Below, one piece after another: positions 1,186 to 8,938 of a DNA stretch of 60,149 bases. This stretch comes from a virus. Every line of letters starts with the position of its first letter. Within the stretch, counting starts at the first letter, position 1. The notes under the pieces were generated by a model. The model searched no databases. It was given only the letters and a program-made list of their open reading frames with translations, and had not been told where the DNA came from. The position numbers were made by a program, and so were the translations under genes. The stretch spans positions 1 through 60,149 of IMG/VR virus record IMGVR_UViG_3300033273_000263, one strand, 5' to 3'.

Positions 1186-2558
1186 CAGAGTATGCTGTCC
1201 TTTGCTAGATTTAAGTAAGAGGTAACTCCCTCAGGTGAATAGGAATGTTTGATTCCTAATACAAGATACTTGCCCGAGTACATTTCGTCAAGCTTAATGC
1301 GTTCATAATCTGCTTGCGATGCTGGAATGTTGACATTGATCACATCACCAGCGCATATACCAGAGTTTCCTGGTATAGCAATGTCCAATTTAATTGCATT
1401 CAATAATTGCCATCTTGACGTACTATAAGCGGATGCAGTCACGGTGTCAAATGTCATATTTGAGGCATTTCCATCAGGATTTGCACTACTCTGGGAGTTT
1501 TTCATCACAGGAAGTGCACGAATTTTAATTCTAGTTGGTTTTGCCTCAGAAAATGAATCAGCACTTGCTCCATAAAAGGGGAATCCCCTATTGAGGTGAT
1601 TGGATAATGACCACACAGAATTGGCACCCATACTAATAGGACCATTTATGGATCCAGAAGGTGCCGAATCTTTGGTACCATCGGATGACTGACCGCCACT
1701 AGGTAGAAATCCAGAAGTCAGTGCTGGCATTGCCAAACCAATAGTCACGCTACTGTACATACCAGAGCGCATTCTTTCCAGATTGTTGGCACGATCTGGA
1801 TAGTTGATACTCTGAATTTTGTAACCATTGACATCACCTGTATTGCCGACGTTTGCCTGCTCATATGTGAAAGACTTTGGATTATTAAATGATGGATTCG
1901 ACCCAGAACACAGATAATCCATCGTACAGAAGTTGGTACCTCTATACGTCTCCCAATAAAGGTATCCAGGTCTACCTGAAGATCCACCAACAATCTTATC
2001 GGAAATATACCCAATACAGTCAAATGCTCTCCAGGAAGGAGAGATGAAATTGAAGTTACCTCTTGCTTCTTCCCATCTCTCGTGCTTTACCTGTCTCTTG
2101 AGATACTTTTTCTCAATTTCAGAGATTGCCTGGGATCCAGGTATATCAGAGAATGACTTAAATACGCGATTTGACTCATTATATGCACCACCAGGAGATA
2201 TGGTGTAGAGCATATAAGTTTGTGCTCTTTCCGTTTTGGTTACTTCACCAATTTTGAAAACCTTTTGAATAACATTGATTTCGTCTTCTGGAGCAGTATC
2301 AGTTGCCATAACCAACTTGACATATTCATTACCAGTCAAGAGTGTATTCAAATCGATCGTATCGAAGATCACCATTTCCATTCTGATGATCGGAGACTCC
2401 ACAGATTCATAATAATTAAAAGCAGAGCACATACCCTTCAGGTCATATGCTTTTTCTCCAGAAAACTTAAGACCAGACAGATCTTCATCAGGCGAAAGAT
2501 CGCGATCTAACGCCAACAGAGTAAATTCCTTTATATTATATCCTTTAGGTTGTGCCAT
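1185..2558 (-). CDS. Baseplate hub protein, gp27-like
   Basis: This 457-residue protein sits last in the tail-hub gene series. The C-terminal ~60 residues read as the second tube-like barrel of the gp27/VgrG/gpD family: AGDVINVNIPA, then SGKYLVLGIKHSY, then a VTSYLNLAKDS ending. The N-terminal half contains short strands such as EYVKLVMATDT and KVFKIGEV. In T4, gp27 forms the trimeric hub ring joining the spike to the tail tube. The gp27 assignment rests on these patterns and on context; another hub-barrel protein is possible. Confidence 0.65.
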   Translation of the reverse strand: MAQPKGYNIKEFTLLALDRDLSPDEDLSGLKFSGEKAYDLKGMCSAFNYYESVESPIIRMEMVIFDTIDLNTLLTGNEYVKLVMATDTAPEDEINVIQKVFKIGEVTKTERAQTYMLYTISPGGAYNESNRVFKSFSDIPGSQAISEIEKKYLKRQVKHERWEEARGNFNFISPSWRAFDCIGYISDKIVGGSSGRPGYLYWETYRGTNFCTMDYLCSGSNPSFNNPKSFTYEQANVGNTGDVNGYKIQSINYPDRANNLERMRSGMYSSVTIGLAMPALTSGFLPSGGQSSDGTKDSAPSGSINGPISMGANSVWSLSNHLNRGFPFYGASADSFSEAKPTRIKIRALPVMKNSQSSANPDGNASNMTFDTVTASAYSTSRWQLLNAIKLDIAIPGNSGICAGDVINVNIPASQADYERIKLDEMYSGKYLVLGIKHSYSPEGVTSYLNLAKDSIL

Positions 2559-4936
2559 TAGAAGAAGTTACTTAATACAGTGGTACCCTCATTGAGGAAA
2601 CCAAATCGAGATTGCAAGAACTGATTAGCAGGATTTTGCTTGCCAGGGATGACAATAGGAGTTTCATCTCCACCGCCTCCGCCAACACCAGGCATTTCAA
2701 TAACATCAAGAACAATAGTCTGAACTTGCTTGCTGAGTTCCTGTGCCTCTACAATATCAGTTGCATCTTGAACCTTCTCGAAGAGATCCATAATCATAGC
2801 ACCAGTGCCAACTGCTTGACCGACACCAGGGATCATACTTGCGGCAGGTGCAAGTGATTGCATAACAGGTTTGACTGTACCCATAATACCATCAATACCC
2901 CTACCAACACCCTTGGCAATGCCCTTCAGGAACCCACCAAGACCCATTTCAGGTATCTTACCACCCTCAGACTTCAAATACCCCAGAGACGCTGCCTGTG
3001 CTATCCTGCGACCAGTCAAACCAGGATCTCTACGAGTATGGGGGGTATCAAAGGGTATTACAAAACCCCCAGAGGATCTTTGTGCGACATATTCAGTTCC
3101 GTGCCCAATAAAGTCTACGCCCTTACCTGTCAGCGATACAGGGTACCCTGACTGAGGTCCACGAATCCATCCACCCTTGCTTCTACCACCCTTCATCTTC
3201 TCAAGGACAGCAATGGTATCCTGCCACTTGCGGTGTGCCTTGTTTCTACCGTCACCGTGGTAGTAGGACAAATTATCTGCACCTCTAGGCAGTGCTGCCC
3301 ACTCCATCGACAGGTTCTTAGCAAATCTCTCTGTGGAGATCTTACCAGACATAAAATCGTTCAGTCCACGACGCTTGAGGAGCAGATTGTAGATGTAGTC
3401 CTGTCCATTCTGGTCAAACTTAAATTTCGCAGGATCCTTACCAGCATTCCTCAGAACCTCAGACGCTGTACGCATCTGGATCTGGTAACGACCCATTGCA
3501 AACTGACCACCCCTCTCATTGAGAAGTTGAGTGACCGTCTTTGTGAGGATAGAAGAGTCCTTCTTACCGCCGACCAGTTTGGTGTAGTCATTTCCAGACT
3601 CAACCGCACCGATAAAACTACCCAGGTTAGTAGATGCAGGCATTGCGGTCGCTCTAGCAGGAGCTGCACCAGTTACAACATCAAGGGCAGCACCACCAGC
3701 GGCAGTGAGGTCTTCACGCATATCAGATGACCCATTGACCCACTTTAAGACCTGCGTCAGTCCTTTCAGAAGATAGATCAGCGGTGCAAAGGCAACTTCA
3801 CCCAAGAAAGATGCCACTTGCTTGATTACTGGCATATGTGGAGCAATAAAGTCCACCATCTTCTGAATGGCAGGACCCAGTTCCTCAAAGAATTTCTTAG
3901 TTGCATTCTTGATCGGTTCAAGGAAGGCATTAATCCCTTCCATTAGTTGCCCGAAAAACTCGCTTAGGGGTTCGATCAGGTCTTTAACAACAGGACCCAG
4001 GAACTTACCTGCGTGTTCACCAAGGAACCCACCCAGTGCGTTACCAATCAGTCCACCGATAGGACCAGCAACTGCGTTACCTATCTGTGCAAGTGCTACA
4101 CCACCAACAGTGGTACCTACGCCAGCACCGATTGCTGCAGACTGACGGTCTTCCTCATCAATAGACTCATCATTTAGGGTACGTTGATATGCTGCATACC
4201 CTTGAGCAGCAGCAACGACGGTCTGACCGATGACATTGCTACCCAGGAACTTACCAAGGTTGAGGATACCTCCCCCAACCATACCCAAGAGTCTACCGAA
4301 GTTGGCAATGGTACCAATCGGATTCTTAAGGAATGAGAGACCAACCAGGGCAGCAGCACCTACACCAACCAGTTTTAGTGCACCCTTTACCCTCTCTTGC
4401 CACGTCTTATCTTTACCGAATGCCTGTTCCCAAGCACCACCAATAAATCCAGTAAGTCTCTGGAAAAACGCTACCGTTGCCTTAAAAAATGCACCTAGTC
4501 GTTCAAATGTTGTCTGTATTGCTCGTTTATTCTTCGGATCCGCTAACCAGTCCAACGCTGCAACAAACAGCATAGACTTGAGGAATTTACCCAACCACTC
4601 CAGGAACGATGGTGCTGCAGCAGAGATAACACTACCAAGTTTCTCCCCAATGTTACCACCACGTCCACCTTCGATTCTATCCTCTAATGCCTTATCCTTT
4701 GCCAGTTGCTGTCTCTTCTTCTGGTCTTGCATCTGCTGTCTTACAGCGTTCTGCTGCTTAGTCAGCATTATACCGATGCTGTTGACCGTAGCACCAAGGG
4801 AATTAATTGCACTTAATGTTGGCGCGAAACTTGCACCAGCAATCTGCTTATCACCAACGGTTATGGTAGCTCCAGAGTCCTTTGGTGCTGTGACAAACTT
4901 ATAGAATCTAATTTTAGGACTTGCTGCAGTTGCCAT
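2558..4936 (-). CDS. Tail hub protein with GH104-like muramidase domain
   Basis: This 792-residue protein starts with a basic segment and a coiled coil (residues ~60-90). A long Gly/Ala-rich glycine-zipper region around residues 210-330 follows, then an enzyme domain near residues 435-585. That domain resembles the lambda R-type lytic transglycosylases (GH104): AVESGNDY with the likely catalytic Glu, GRYQIQ, a QD pair, LLLKRRG and EWAALPRG. It probably opens peptidoglycan during tail penetration. Its N-terminal half is paralogous to the adjacent M23 protein: both have a KALEDR coiled coil followed by a D(W/F)L(A/S)DPKNK helix. Confidence 0.8.
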   Translation of the reverse strand: MATAASPKIRFYKFVTAPKDSGATITVGDKQIAGASFAPTLSAINSLGATVNSIGIMLTKQQNAVRQQMQDQKKRQQLAKDKALEDRIEGGRGGNIGEKLGSVISAAAPSFLEWLGKFLKSMLFVAALDWLADPKNKRAIQTTFERLGAFFKATVAFFQRLTGFIGGAWEQAFGKDKTWQERVKGALKLVGVGAAALVGLSFLKNPIGTIANFGRLLGMVGGGILNLGKFLGSNVIGQTVVAAAQGYAAYQRTLNDESIDEEDRQSAAIGAGVGTTVGGVALAQIGNAVAGPIGGLIGNALGGFLGEHAGKFLGPVVKDLIEPLSEFFGQLMEGINAFLEPIKNATKKFFEELGPAIQKMVDFIAPHMPVIKQVASFLGEVAFAPLIYLLKGLTQVLKWVNGSSDMREDLTAAGGAALDVVTGAAPARATAMPASTNLGSFIGAVESGNDYTKLVGGKKDSSILTKTVTQLLNERGGQFAMGRYQIQMRTASEVLRNAGKDPAKFKFDQNGQDYIYNLLLKRRGLNDFMSGKISTERFAKNLSMEWAALPRGADNLSYYHGDGRNKAHRKWQDTIAVLEKMKGGRSKGGWIRGPQSGYPVSLTGKGVDFIGHGTEYVAQRSSGGFVIPFDTPHTRRDPGLTGRRIAQAASLGYLKSEGGKIPEMGLGGFLKGIAKGVGRGIDGIMGTVKPVMQSLAPAASMIPGVGQAVGTGAMIMDLFEKVQDATDIVEAQELSKQVQTIVLDVIEMPGVGGGGGDETPIVIPGKQNPANQFLQSRFGFLNEGTTVLSNFF

Positions 4937-7191
4937 TATCTAATGCCTGCTCCAGTATTTGAGTATTGGACATTCGCACCGCCTCCAGAGTTGGATGCAG
5001 GTCTAACAATGGGTTGTACAACAACAGGTTGTGCTCCTGTTGTTCTCCTCTTGGGCGTAGGTGGCGGAGGAGATGTCGTATTATTATCAGTATTTATCGT
5101 TGCTACTGGATCGGGTGGGGTGTTAACAACCCTGTTCTCTGCCTTGTTTGGTGTGCCGAACAGGTGAGGATAAATGTTATGAGGACTGAGATCTCCACCT
5201 TTACCTTGCTTGTAGACTTCCAGGTGCAGGTGTGTGTTAGCAATATCACGACCAACACGTCTCATATCGACGAGTTTACCAATTTTTTGTCCTGCCTCAA
5301 CACGATCCCCAGGTTTTACGCTAGGCATCATATGAACATATCTCTGATCATATCCATCATCACCCTTAATCATCATACCAGAGAGATAGTTCAAGGTACC
5401 AAGGAACTTCTCTGCCAATACAGTACCACCAACCATCGCGACCACATCGATCGCTGGATCAACACCAAAAGGAGGTTTCTCAGTCAGGTCAATGCCAGCG
5501 TGAGCACCTCTAGATGCATTGGGGTGAGTTCTGTGGTATTGGTTTGCCTGACCAGCAAATCTACCTCTAGGCAGAGGGAAGATCGTGCTACCTTTACCAC
5601 CCTTACTAGGTCCACGGACCTTCAATTCCTCTAGCACCTGAGTGCTGGTCATTACTGCCTTCTGCTGTCTCTTCTTCTTCTCTTCAAGTTCTCTAATATG
5701 TCTTTGCTCAGCAGCAATTCTATTCTCTACAGTGTTTACACCAAAGTCAGCGTGATCACCATAATAGATGCGAGCATCTCTACCGTGTTTTGCCTGGTGC
5801 CTCTGCAGGAAGGCTAGTTTCTCCTGTGCTTTTTTAATTTCATTGTCGGTACCAGTTACAGCCCTTTCAGCCTGACGCTTCTCTCTTTCTGCAGTTGCCC
5901 TCTCGTCTTCGAGACCAAACACATTAGCAACAGCACCAAGAGTATCTCCAGCACTCTGCATCAACTCCATACCACCATTGATCCAACTCTGAAGAGTTGC
6001 CAAGGCACCCTGAACCCAAGGAGAGTTCAGCATATCAATCATACCCTGAATTGCTGAGTCAGCAATAGGTTTCAAGAAGTCTCCGATCATCACGAAGACT
6101 GGTACCATCTCATCCCAGAGACCAACGAATGCGTCTACAACAGGAGAGATGAATGACTGGAATGCTGGCCAAGCAATCTCCAAGAAGTAATTCTTGAGAG
6201 GTTCTAAGATGGGTGTGATACTGTCACCAATGAAAGCACCAACCTTCTCACCCAGGAATGATCCCAGGAACTGACCGACGATGGGACCAAACGGACCCAG
6301 GATAGGTGTCAGCAGAGCAGACATTGCAAGACCGCCGATGACGGCACCCGCACCTGCACCTACAGCAGTCTCTACCTTGTCACCCTGTGCCAGTCTGGTA
6401 GCAGTTGACGCAACACCAGCAATGACAGAGATACCACCACCTTTGAGGAACTTACCAGCACCTGCCTTGAGTCTCCTCATCCTACGGATATGGGCAATGC
6501 GTGCTGCTCTTGCTTTTACTGCCTTCTTATGTAATTGCTTGGGCGATGAGTTCTTCCTCATCGAGTTGCCCAAGAAACTAATCAGTCTCTGAGCATCACC
6601 AATAAGTTTCCAGGGTTTTAATATCCTATCTGCTACCACCAGCGTGGCGAGACCACCTACTATCTTCAGTGCTCCCATCAGGAGACTCTCTTCCCCAAAG
6701 GCACCTAGCAATAGGTTGACTGAGGTTTGTACTACGCTCCACAACGTAGACACCCACGCAGTAATTATCTTTATGCCCGTCTTGATTATACCTTTGTTCT
6801 TTGGATCGCTGAGGAAGTCTAGTACAAACCAAGTTGCAACAGACTTTACCAACCACATAAATGGTTGAAGCAACTTTTCCAACCAGGTCAGTTTCATTCC
6901 AGTTGGTTTTGCCTCAGCACCTTTATCTAAGTCTTTACCTTTTACGTTACCCTTCTCTAGTCTATCTTCTAACGCTTTATCTCTCTTCAGTTGCTCTTGC
7001 TGAGCAGTTACTCCACCAGTCAGTAGTTCTTGATTAAATGCCATTTGACTGGCAAGGATGTTACCAATATCCTCCACAACAAAACCCATCCTAGTCACTG
7101 CTGTAGTCATTGCAGAGATGGGATTAGAAGTACCACCTCCCGTCTTTGGGGGGAGGAAGGATCTAATTTTTATGGGTTTTGTTGTTGCCAT
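4936..7191 (-). CDS. Tail hub protein with M23 metallopeptidase domain
   Basis: This 751-residue protein shares its N-terminal plan with the downstream GH104 protein: KALEDR coiled coil, DFLSDPKNK helix, then a Gly/Ala-rich zipper near residues 270-330. A second coiled coil (~440-520) precedes an M23-family lysostaphin-like domain near residues 560-690. Zinc ligands are visible as HAGIDL (HxxxD) and NTHLHLEVY (HxH). M23 enzymes cut peptide cross-links in murein. The C-terminus is Thr/Pro-rich and probably flexible. Its ATG shares one base with the TAA of the frameshift extension upstream. Confidence 0.85.
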   Translation of the reverse strand: MATTKPIKIRSFLPPKTGGGTSNPISAMTTAVTRMGFVVEDIGNILASQMAFNQELLTGGVTAQQEQLKRDKALEDRLEKGNVKGKDLDKGAEAKPTGMKLTWLEKLLQPFMWLVKSVATWFVLDFLSDPKNKGIIKTGIKIITAWVSTLWSVVQTSVNLLLGAFGEESLLMGALKIVGGLATLVVADRILKPWKLIGDAQRLISFLGNSMRKNSSPKQLHKKAVKARAARIAHIRRMRRLKAGAGKFLKGGGISVIAGVASTATRLAQGDKVETAVGAGAGAVIGGLAMSALLTPILGPFGPIVGQFLGSFLGEKVGAFIGDSITPILEPLKNYFLEIAWPAFQSFISPVVDAFVGLWDEMVPVFVMIGDFLKPIADSAIQGMIDMLNSPWVQGALATLQSWINGGMELMQSAGDTLGAVANVFGLEDERATAEREKRQAERAVTGTDNEIKKAQEKLAFLQRHQAKHGRDARIYYGDHADFGVNTVENRIAAEQRHIRELEEKKKRQQKAVMTSTQVLEELKVRGPSKGGKGSTIFPLPRGRFAGQANQYHRTHPNASRGAHAGIDLTEKPPFGVDPAIDVVAMVGGTVLAEKFLGTLNYLSGMMIKGDDGYDQRYVHMMPSVKPGDRVEAGQKIGKLVDMRRVGRDIANTHLHLEVYKQGKGGDLSPHNIYPHLFGTPNKAENRVVNTPPDPVATINTDNNTTSPPPPTPKRRTTGAQPVVVQPIVRPASNSGGGANVQYSNTGAGIR

Positions 7192-7388
7192 TAAAGTGAC
7201 TGACCTTTGGACGCTGCCCTTTGACGGGACTCCTCTTCACGCAAATGACGAATCAGCATATTAACGTACACGTCCCGCTCCCACGGCATCATATTCTCCA
7301 ACTCAGTTAGACTGTATTTGTGATGTTGCATCAATGCAAAGTTCACTTCAAACAGATTGATCAGAGAATCGTGGGCGAGGGCTACGCG
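7191..7388 (-). CDS. gp26 -1 frameshift extension (gp51-like), 65 codons
   Basis: This frame is open from the slippery site at the end of the gp26-like gene to a TAA that overlaps the next ATG. Slipping back one base at T TTT TTC gives a 300-residue product made of 235 residues of gp26 plus 65 more. The extension contains YSLTELENMMPWERDVYVNM, which looks like tail-assembly chaperone extensions (a 'lt..e...mpw.er..y' pattern). The only internal ATG that keeps most of it is at 7331, and it has no Shine-Dalgarno sequence, which favours frameshifting. A separate gp51-like protein is the alternative. Confidence 0.7.
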   Translation of the reverse strand, partial: RVALAHDSLINLFEVNFALMQHHKYSLTELENMMPWERDVYVNMLIRHLREEESRQRAASKGQSL

Positions 7389-8092
7389 AAAAAAGCTGCC
7401 ATCCCCTCAAGAACGACTTCACTCTTCACTTCGGTCTTCGGATTGAACACCTCAATAGTATGCTTAAGTTTAGGCATACTCTCAAAGAAACCTTGCACCT
7501 TCTGGAACTGAGTGGAGTTCATACCTTCAAAGAACTCAATGAGTTCTGCTTTCTTGTATGCTTTTGCGTCTTCAACGTCTTCACCATTGGCAATTTGGTC
7601 TACGCAATCAGCAGCAAGTTGGAAGATGTCTTCCAGACCAGGATTCTCAGAGAGGTTAGTCTTAACGAAGGTATCGATGGAAGGATACTTCATAACCAAG
7701 GTAACCTCGTCAGTGATCTTGACTTTGTTACTATGATTATCAGGTACCTGCACTTCAACCTCGTCAAGGTTTACTTCAACATCAACCAGTGTTTCACCGT
7801 CGTCAGGGCAGGTGAGTTTGAACTCACTAATTTCACCGACAGACTTAGCACGAATCTTCAGGAACAGATATTCAATATCAAAGGTAGCAAGGGTATCTAC
7901 CTTCTTCACACTGGTACAATTTTTGATAATCTCTTTAACTGCTTTGACCATCTCTTTCTGATCGCCAGTCTCCATTGCAACGTAAAGCAATTTCTCTTCA
8001 CGAACTAGAAAAGGACGGTACGTTACCTTCTGACCGAAGGGCAGTACACATTCATACTCAGGCACCACCAGTGTGGGCAAAGGCATAGGCAT
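7382..8092 (-). CDS. 26: Baseplate hub assembly protein gp26-like
   Basis: This 236-residue acidic protein has the N-terminus and length of the T4 gp26-type baseplate family: a VPEYECVLPFGQKVTYRPF start, then a helix around EEKLLYVAME. T4 gp26 acts with gp51 in building the baseplate hub. The last codons are GCT TTT TTC GCG TAG, and the -1 frame continues for 65 codons. A late promoter box lies 26 nt upstream of the ATG. The family call comes from sequence feel and from the order gp26, hub proteins, gp54-like; it was not tested by a search. Confidence 0.75.
   Translation of the reverse strand: MPMPLPTLVVPEYECVLPFGQKVTYRPFLVREEKLLYVAMETGDQKEMVKAVKEIIKNCTSVKKVDTLATFDIEYLFLKIRAKSVGEISEFKLTCPDDGETLVDVEVNLDEVEVQVPDNHSNKVKITDEVTLVMKYPSIDTFVKTNLSENPGLEDIFQLAADCVDQIANGEDVEDAKAYKKAELIEFFEGMNSTQFQKVQGFFESMPKLKHTIEVFNPKTEVKSEVVLEGMAAFFA
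7388..7394 (-). promoter_or_regulatory. Candidate -1 ribosomal frameshift site, T TTT TTC
   Basis: Six T and a C form a perfect X XXY YYZ heptamer, in phase with the gp26 frame and two codons before its TAG. Both tRNAs can re-pair after slipping back one base: TTT stays TTT and TTC becomes TTT. The -1 frame is open for 65 more codons. Confidence 0.65.
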
Positions 8093-8128: not shown

Positions 8129-8938
8129 CTATCTGAAGATGCTACTCAAACTATCAGCAACGTCCGAAATAGCATTGATAGTTCTATCAACTCCAGCAAG
8201 AGTGTTGTTGATACTATTGAAAATATTTGTGTTAGATGTTGATGGTGCTCCACCAACAGGTTGGTTGTACAAGTCTGGTACTGCACCCTCAGTAATGATA
8301 TCTTCTGTCCAATCACCTTGACTCTTGATGGTGGTACCCATACGGAAACGCTCAACATAGAACTGAACATCCAGTTTCATCAGGTTTGTCTGTTCGTTGT
8401 TGAATGTCATTGCTCCCACATTGTATGGGAAGCAACCAACTGCTCTCCACTGTGCCGTAATTTTATTGTGTCTGATGCTCTGAACACCACGCTCAGTATC
8501 AAAGGTTCTGGTCACCAGGTTAGATCCAGGTTCCCACTTGTTGATGATAATATCAGTCACATAGTTATCATAGAAGAGACTTCTATTCTCAGTGTCTCTA
8601 GAGATAGTATTGATCCATCTCTCAAAGAACGATCTGTGCCACTGATTCTTTGTGACGAGGAAGGAGATCGTAAGTTCTTGGGGAGTCTGCTGCGTTGCAT
8701 ACCTTCTCATCGTACCGAAGTTAGTAACCTCACCTGTCATCAAATTACGAGAGGGTACCTGTACACTGTCAGCGAAGTAATCGATTGCTTCAAAGACACC
8801 CTGCGGACCACCGTATTCCCAAATGATCCCGCGTGCAAACTGGGGAATACCCATCTGCACACTAAACATATTAGAGCGAGATGGTTCATACTGACCAGTC
8901 GCAACCAGGTTCTTAAATCTTGTGAATGAGATTGACAT
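8129..8938 (-). CDS. Tail-tube-family baseplate protein, gp54-like
   Basis: This 269-residue protein resembles the T4 gp19/gp54 tail-tube family. It opens with MSISFTRFKNLVATGQYEPS, then has FSVQMGIP, a long loop, TMRRYATQQTPQELTISFLV and a Q-W-R-A-V-G-C-F-P strand. In T4, gp54 caps the baseplate and nucleates tube polymerisation, whereas gp19 is the tube subunit. The length exceeds gp19, and the neighbours are gp26-like, gp4 and gp48, so gp54 is the better fit. Its ATG overlaps the stop of the upstream gene. Confidence 0.65.
   Translation of the reverse strand: MSISFTRFKNLVATGQYEPSRSNMFSVQMGIPQFARGIIWEYGGPQGVFEAIDYFADSVQVPSRNLMTGEVTNFGTMRRYATQQTPQELTISFLVTKNQWHRSFFERWINTISRDTENRSLFYDNYVTDIIINKWEPGSNLVTRTFDTERGVQSIRHNKITAQWRAVGCFPYNVGAMTFNNEQTNLMKLDVQFYVERFRMGTTIKSQGDWTEDIITEGAVPDLYNQPVGGAPSTSNTNIFNSINNTLAGVDRTINAISDVADSLSSIFR

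Follow-up and report, generated by a model that had tools for sequence, protein, structure and literature searches.

Does the gp26 homologue of this phage yield a single protein, or does its end open into a second, longer product? The window (the whole 60,149-nt stretch of the viral record IMGVR_UViG_3300033273_000263 that was analysed) contains, on its minus strand, a gp26 homologue whose 3' end reads GAG GGG ATG GCA GCT TTT TTC GCG TAG. The first-pass annotation had interpreted this end as a -1 slippery site that opens a 65-codon extension, giving a pair of chaperones of the lambda G/GT type with 236 and 300 residues. Inspection of the sequence confirmed that the T TTT TTC heptamer (7394-7388) is in phase. 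The -1 frame is open from 7388 to 7194 (65 codons) and its TAA at 7193-7191 overlaps the ATG of the 751-aa open reading frame (ORF), so that the frame and both product sizes had been given correctly. After a -1 slip, reading would resume with CGC GTA. The predicted slip junction in the 300-aa product is AFF-RVALAHDSLINLFEVNF (junction residues AFF-RVALAHDSL). We screened all six frames of the whole window for ORFs (≥100 aa) that combine an in-phase XXXYYYZ near the stop with ≥40 further codons open in the -1 frame. This combination was unique to the gp26 ORF. Judged by its sequence, the locus very probably encodes the tail assembly chaperone (TAC) of a cyanomyovirus-like phage, in which -1 frameshifting would give TAC-N and TAC-NC (Table 1).

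Table 1. Features of the chaperone locus and its neighbours, in coordinates of the window.
Feature	Position	Strand	Evidence
gp26 homologue, predicted short tail assembly chaperone (TAC-N), 236 aa	7382..8092	-	PF12322 E=1e-67; phrog_150 E=2e-74; AlphaFold model pLDDT 93
Slippery heptamer T TTT TTC, in phase	7388..7394	-	sequence; T TTT TT[C/T/A] in phase in 74/74 non-redundant relatives
Internal Shine-Dalgarno-like GAGGGG, 8 nt 5' of heptamer; likely stimulator	7403..7408	-	4-mer counts; Glu codon bias
-1 frame extension (TAC-C), 65 codons + TAA; predicted C-terminal part of 300-aa TAC-NC	7191..7388	-	phrog_634 E=5.5e-28; alignments; helical model
751-aa tape-measure-like tail protein with M23 peptidase domain	4936..7191	-	PF01551; weak tape-measure PHROG matches
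792-aa paralogue of the 751-aa protein	2558..4936	-	BLASTP E=8e-24 over residues 1-434
Tail tube-like protein, encoded next to and upstream of gp26 homologue	8129..8938	-	phrog_45 E=7.5e-44

In profile searches, TAC-N matched phrog_150, which is described as 'baseplate hub', and the extension matched phrog_634, the 'baseplate hub assembly catalyst'. The extension also weakly matched the C-terminal end of phrog_150, indicating that this profile already includes the fused form. The tape-measure-like ORF begins at the TAC-C stop, and most relatives likewise have a large ORF next. Its product is called tape-measure-like from weak PHROG matches and its position. The tandem proteins encoded at 2558-4936 and 4936-7191 are paralogues that share 26% identity (E=8e-24) in their N-terminal ~430 residues, and the M23 peptidase domain is present in the 751-aa protein only and absent from its 792-aa paralogue.

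Related loci were gathered on the basis of proteins resembling gp26 or the extension, the heptamer not being a criterion. The extension was found in the -1 frame in all 133 of the 133 loci holding both parts. Conservation was analysed in a set made non-redundant at 80% identity, which holds 74 sequences and includes 12 named phages. Each of the 74 has an in-phase T TTT TTN site (C in 62, T in 8 and A in 4 at the last position). The 12 named phages that keep the heptamer belong to Kyanoviridae, Straboviridae (Nanhuvirus, Ceceduovirus), Emdodecavirus, Chakrabartyvirus, Menderavirus and others. The alignment of the site in relatives that had been proposed earlier thus revealed a heptamer that is invariant across diverse phages.

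Could the site be a chance product, a slippery Phe-Phe ending followed by a fortuitously open -1 frame? Phe-Phe is conserved at the protein level, and this accounts for part of the T run. However, the codon before the heptamer ends with T in 74/74 sequences, though it codes for Ser, Asp, Asn or Ala (log10 P about -17 if the sequences were independent, a value overstated by kinship). The first Phe codon in the heptamer is always TTT, in comparison to 64% elsewhere in the gene (log10 P about -14 under independence, likewise overstated by kinship). Since the sampled sequences are related, these P values are only indicative and their significance is overstated. The wobble T is nevertheless invariant both in the codon preceding the run and inside it. 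Together with the conserved -1 protein and the fixed frame, this refutes a coincidence: with all 133 loci in the -1 frame and all 74 sequences keeping the T-heptamer, chance is ruled out and receives practically no weight.

Some loci deviate in detail. In Vibrio phage VAP7 (Ackermannviridae, L144:3700-3760), the TAC-C ORF is in the -1 frame and has no in-phase X_XXY_YYZ. Its site reads CAC GTT TTT CGC TAA and resembles the GTTTTT motif that the phage Adele paper (PMC12846349) reports for Vandenendeviridae and Andersonviridae. In a subgroup (L063, L070, L071, L074, L087, L107 and similar loci), the zero frame stops 7-8 codons after the heptamer, and thus the short product there has a longer tail. 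In several loci of this type, the large ORF lies ~300-430 nt further downstream.

The extension could also be a gene of its own, a small gp51-like protein translated separately from a start within the -1 frame. Two observations fit such separate, overlapping genes. First, the cyanophage and related GenBank records examined contain no joined annotation of the junction; they list two genes, a hub subunit and a hub assembly catalyst, or lack the second part. Second, an ATG is located within 15 codons after the heptamer in 26/74 relatives, so that a comparison of starts alone is not decisive everywhere. The invariant heptamer is decisive, and separate genes would leave it unexplained. Only 2/74 relatives have a start codon in the -1 frame that coincides with or precedes the heptamer. 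In the window, the earliest -1 start is a GTG at residue 15, followed by a TTG, and ATG first occurs as residue 20, at 7331. We searched for a Shine-Dalgarno (SD) sequence 5' of these GTG, TTG and ATG codons in the window and found none, in line with the earlier claim that the extension lacks a good start or ribosome site.

The protein sequence of the extension also argues against a separate start. The extension is 56-67 aa long in 74/74 relatives. In their alignments, conserved residues begin right after the heptamer with the block R[IV]ALxHDSL, which lies 5' of the candidate starts in the window, and residues upstream of most possible extension starts are conserved. Between close relatives, substitutions in -1 codons 1-15, which precede the earliest possible start in the window, are mostly at the third position (160 vs 79 and 57 at the other two). 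Codons 16-57 are also dominated by third-position substitutions. In the structure model, the predicted first helix of the extension begins at residue 2. A separate product starting near 7331, which had been named as the outcome that would contradict frameshifting, would lose 19 residues of the conserved sequence. The extension was therefore rejected as an independent gp51-like gene with its own start, on account of the missing SD and of the conserved residues upstream, and we consider separate translation from the GTG or from the ATG at 7331 very unlikely.

If the extension is reached by a slip, signals promoting slippage may be expected around the heptamer. In bacteria, SD-like elements are known to stimulate -1 frameshifting, and UUY codons in the A site are slippery in E. 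coli (PMC4066793). An SD-like 4-mer is located 20 to 7 nt 5' of the heptamer in 58/74 relatives, mostly at offsets -15 to -12, while the background in windows of the same genes is 8.6%. At the SD-like position, the Glu codons GAG and GAA occur in a ratio of 31:12, in comparison to 545:1195 gene-wide (P=1e-7). This synonymous preference for GAG places the bias at the nucleotide level. Downstream of the heptamer, the mean folding z over the 74 relatives was -2.1 (60 nt from 12 nt after the first base of the heptamer), and strong hairpins were predicted in many of them. In this phage, no downstream stimulatory hairpin was predicted (83 nt, folding z=0.03). GAGGGG would thus stimulate slippage here by SD pairing alone, as we infer. 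A long hairpin ~5 nt past the heptamer, absent in the window, was predicted in L149, L062, L064 and L046; it has an ~11-bp outer stem and reaches down to -26 kcal/mol in 60 nt.

These signals also bear on the possibility that RNA polymerase, and not the ribosome, slips on the T6 run and yields a fused mRNA. Every heptamer is a T-homopolymer and a few relatives have T7-T8, as transcriptional slippage would have it. But the run is mostly exactly six T, and a run of six is short for RNA polymerase slippage. In addition, ribosomal slippage alone would call for an SD-like element at a fixed spacing, and the downstream hairpin in many relatives likewise speaks against slippage during transcription, which we regard as highly unlikely.

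With ribosomal frameshifting, expression of the locus can be pictured as follows. The majority of ribosomes would terminate at the TAG and release the 236-aa TAC-N. A minority would pause when the upstream GAGGGG pairs with 16S rRNA, and would slip by -1 on U UUU UUC. The two Phe tRNAs would pair anew, CGC GUA would be read next, and the product would be TAC-NC of 300 aa. If the two forms act as lambda gpG/gpGT do, the tape measure protein, whose gene follows directly downstream, would be coated by TAC-N, both as the short form and as the first part of TAC-NC, and tail tube subunits would be brought in by the TAC-C domain. In this picture, the occurrence and frequency of slippage and the chaperone function are what we infer.

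The locus is similar to lambda gpG/gpGT in its predicted -1 frameshift near the end of the short ORF, its position directly upstream of the putative tape measure gene and its small second domain. It differs in that TAC-N is larger here (236 aa) and is mixed alpha/beta. The lambda heptamer is G GGA AAG, as opposed to T TTT TTC. With E. coli dnaX, the locus shares a slippery heptamer with an internal SD just 5' of it (GAGGGG, 8 nt upstream). Unlike this phage, dnaX has an A AAA AAG heptamer and a downstream hairpin.

The AlphaFold model of TAC-N is confident and mixed alpha/beta, and among viral structures its neighbours are proteins of the baseplate hub and of hub assembly. When the PDB was searched with this model, the HK97 tail assembly chaperone 2OB9 had by far the best probability (0.72) but an E value of 0.93. 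This match is not significant, and the likeness to the HK97 chaperone fold is thus a hint only. A search by sequence for a homologue of solved structure found none. The TAC-C model is helical, and the structure search with it gave no significant match. Three features of a T4-like TAC are present at the locus: membership of the gp26 family, a slippery site with a conserved -1 ORF, and a position upstream of a tape-measure-like gene. The earlier reading as a G/GT-type pair made by -1 frameshifting is strongly supported by the conservation of frame, heptamer and extension in relatives.

How, then, are the two products related to gp26 and gp51 of T4? In profile comparisons, T4 gp26 aligned with TAC-N only (E=6.5e-22), whereas residues 15-244 of the 249 residues of T4 gp51 aligned with TAC-N plus TAC-C (E=8e-13). 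The C-terminal part of gp51 matched the extension alone (hmmsearch E=2e-8), and homology to the extension is confined to the last ~40 residues of gp51. T4 gp26 and gp51 are themselves mutually similar (BLASTP E=2e-6). Thus, gp26 corresponds to the short product and gp51 to the whole 300-residue product, and the split is one of short versus long chaperone, not of 26 plus 51. The first-pass view that both are represented by one gene here holds, but the extension equals only the last part of gp51 and not the whole protein. That gp51 is a full fusion also argues against separate translation of the extension.

T4 has two copies of this family per genome, while each of the 12 frameshift phages (12/12) has one. 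In T4, the homologous genes 26 and 51 are separate and lie on opposite strands, in contrast to the single frameshifted gene of this phage. T4 gene 26 reads GAG TTC TTT GAG, keeping Phe-Phe; coded by TTC TTT, it lacks the heptamer. T4 gene 51 has its own SD (AAGGAG). On balance, we favour a scenario in which U UUU UUN and a selected internal SD are the ancestral setting of the short:long ratio in marine T4-like phages. Hairpins would have been gained and lost between lineages, and T4 would have duplicated the gene and destroyed the heptamer.

Frameshifting is reportedly conserved in several T4-like groups, with T4 using genes 26 and 51, as the abstract of the 2022 study of Vladimirov and coauthors is said to state. 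T4 has been described as an exception to the conserved G-T frameshifting (Atkins et al. 2016, PMC5009743). As cited by two later papers (PMC10885494, PMC12846349), the TAC genes of T4-like phages were identified by Vladimirov, Gautam & Davidson (2022, Virology 566:9-15, doi 10.1016/j.virol.2021.11.003). According to the passages citing that study, in some T4-like phages a short gene is accompanied by a long fusion gene (PRFect paper, PMC10885494), and T4-like TAC-N genes have poly-T frameshift signals (phage Adele paper, PMC12846349). As far as these citations describe them, those TACs share the kind of locus and the poly-T sites with ours, and some T4-like phages have separate short and long genes. 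A frameshifted TAC in T4-like phages was, by these accounts, already proposed in 2022, and our finding arrives at it again independently, for a new phage, and adds evidence on the signals. The synonymous-codon evidence for the internal SD and the contrast between one copy and two copies were worked out in the present analysis.

Public annotations of the extension vary: it is truncated to 41 aa in Sf-FP1 (L146:2552-2677) and was missed entirely in S-WAM1 (L149:3703-3892). Reading the locus as one frameshifted chaperone gene corrects its annotation as hub subunit and hub assembly catalyst, and it points T4 gp26 and gp51 toward tape measure handling. T4 and the frameshift phages together represent a simple case of a lineage exchanging frameshifting for gene duplication.
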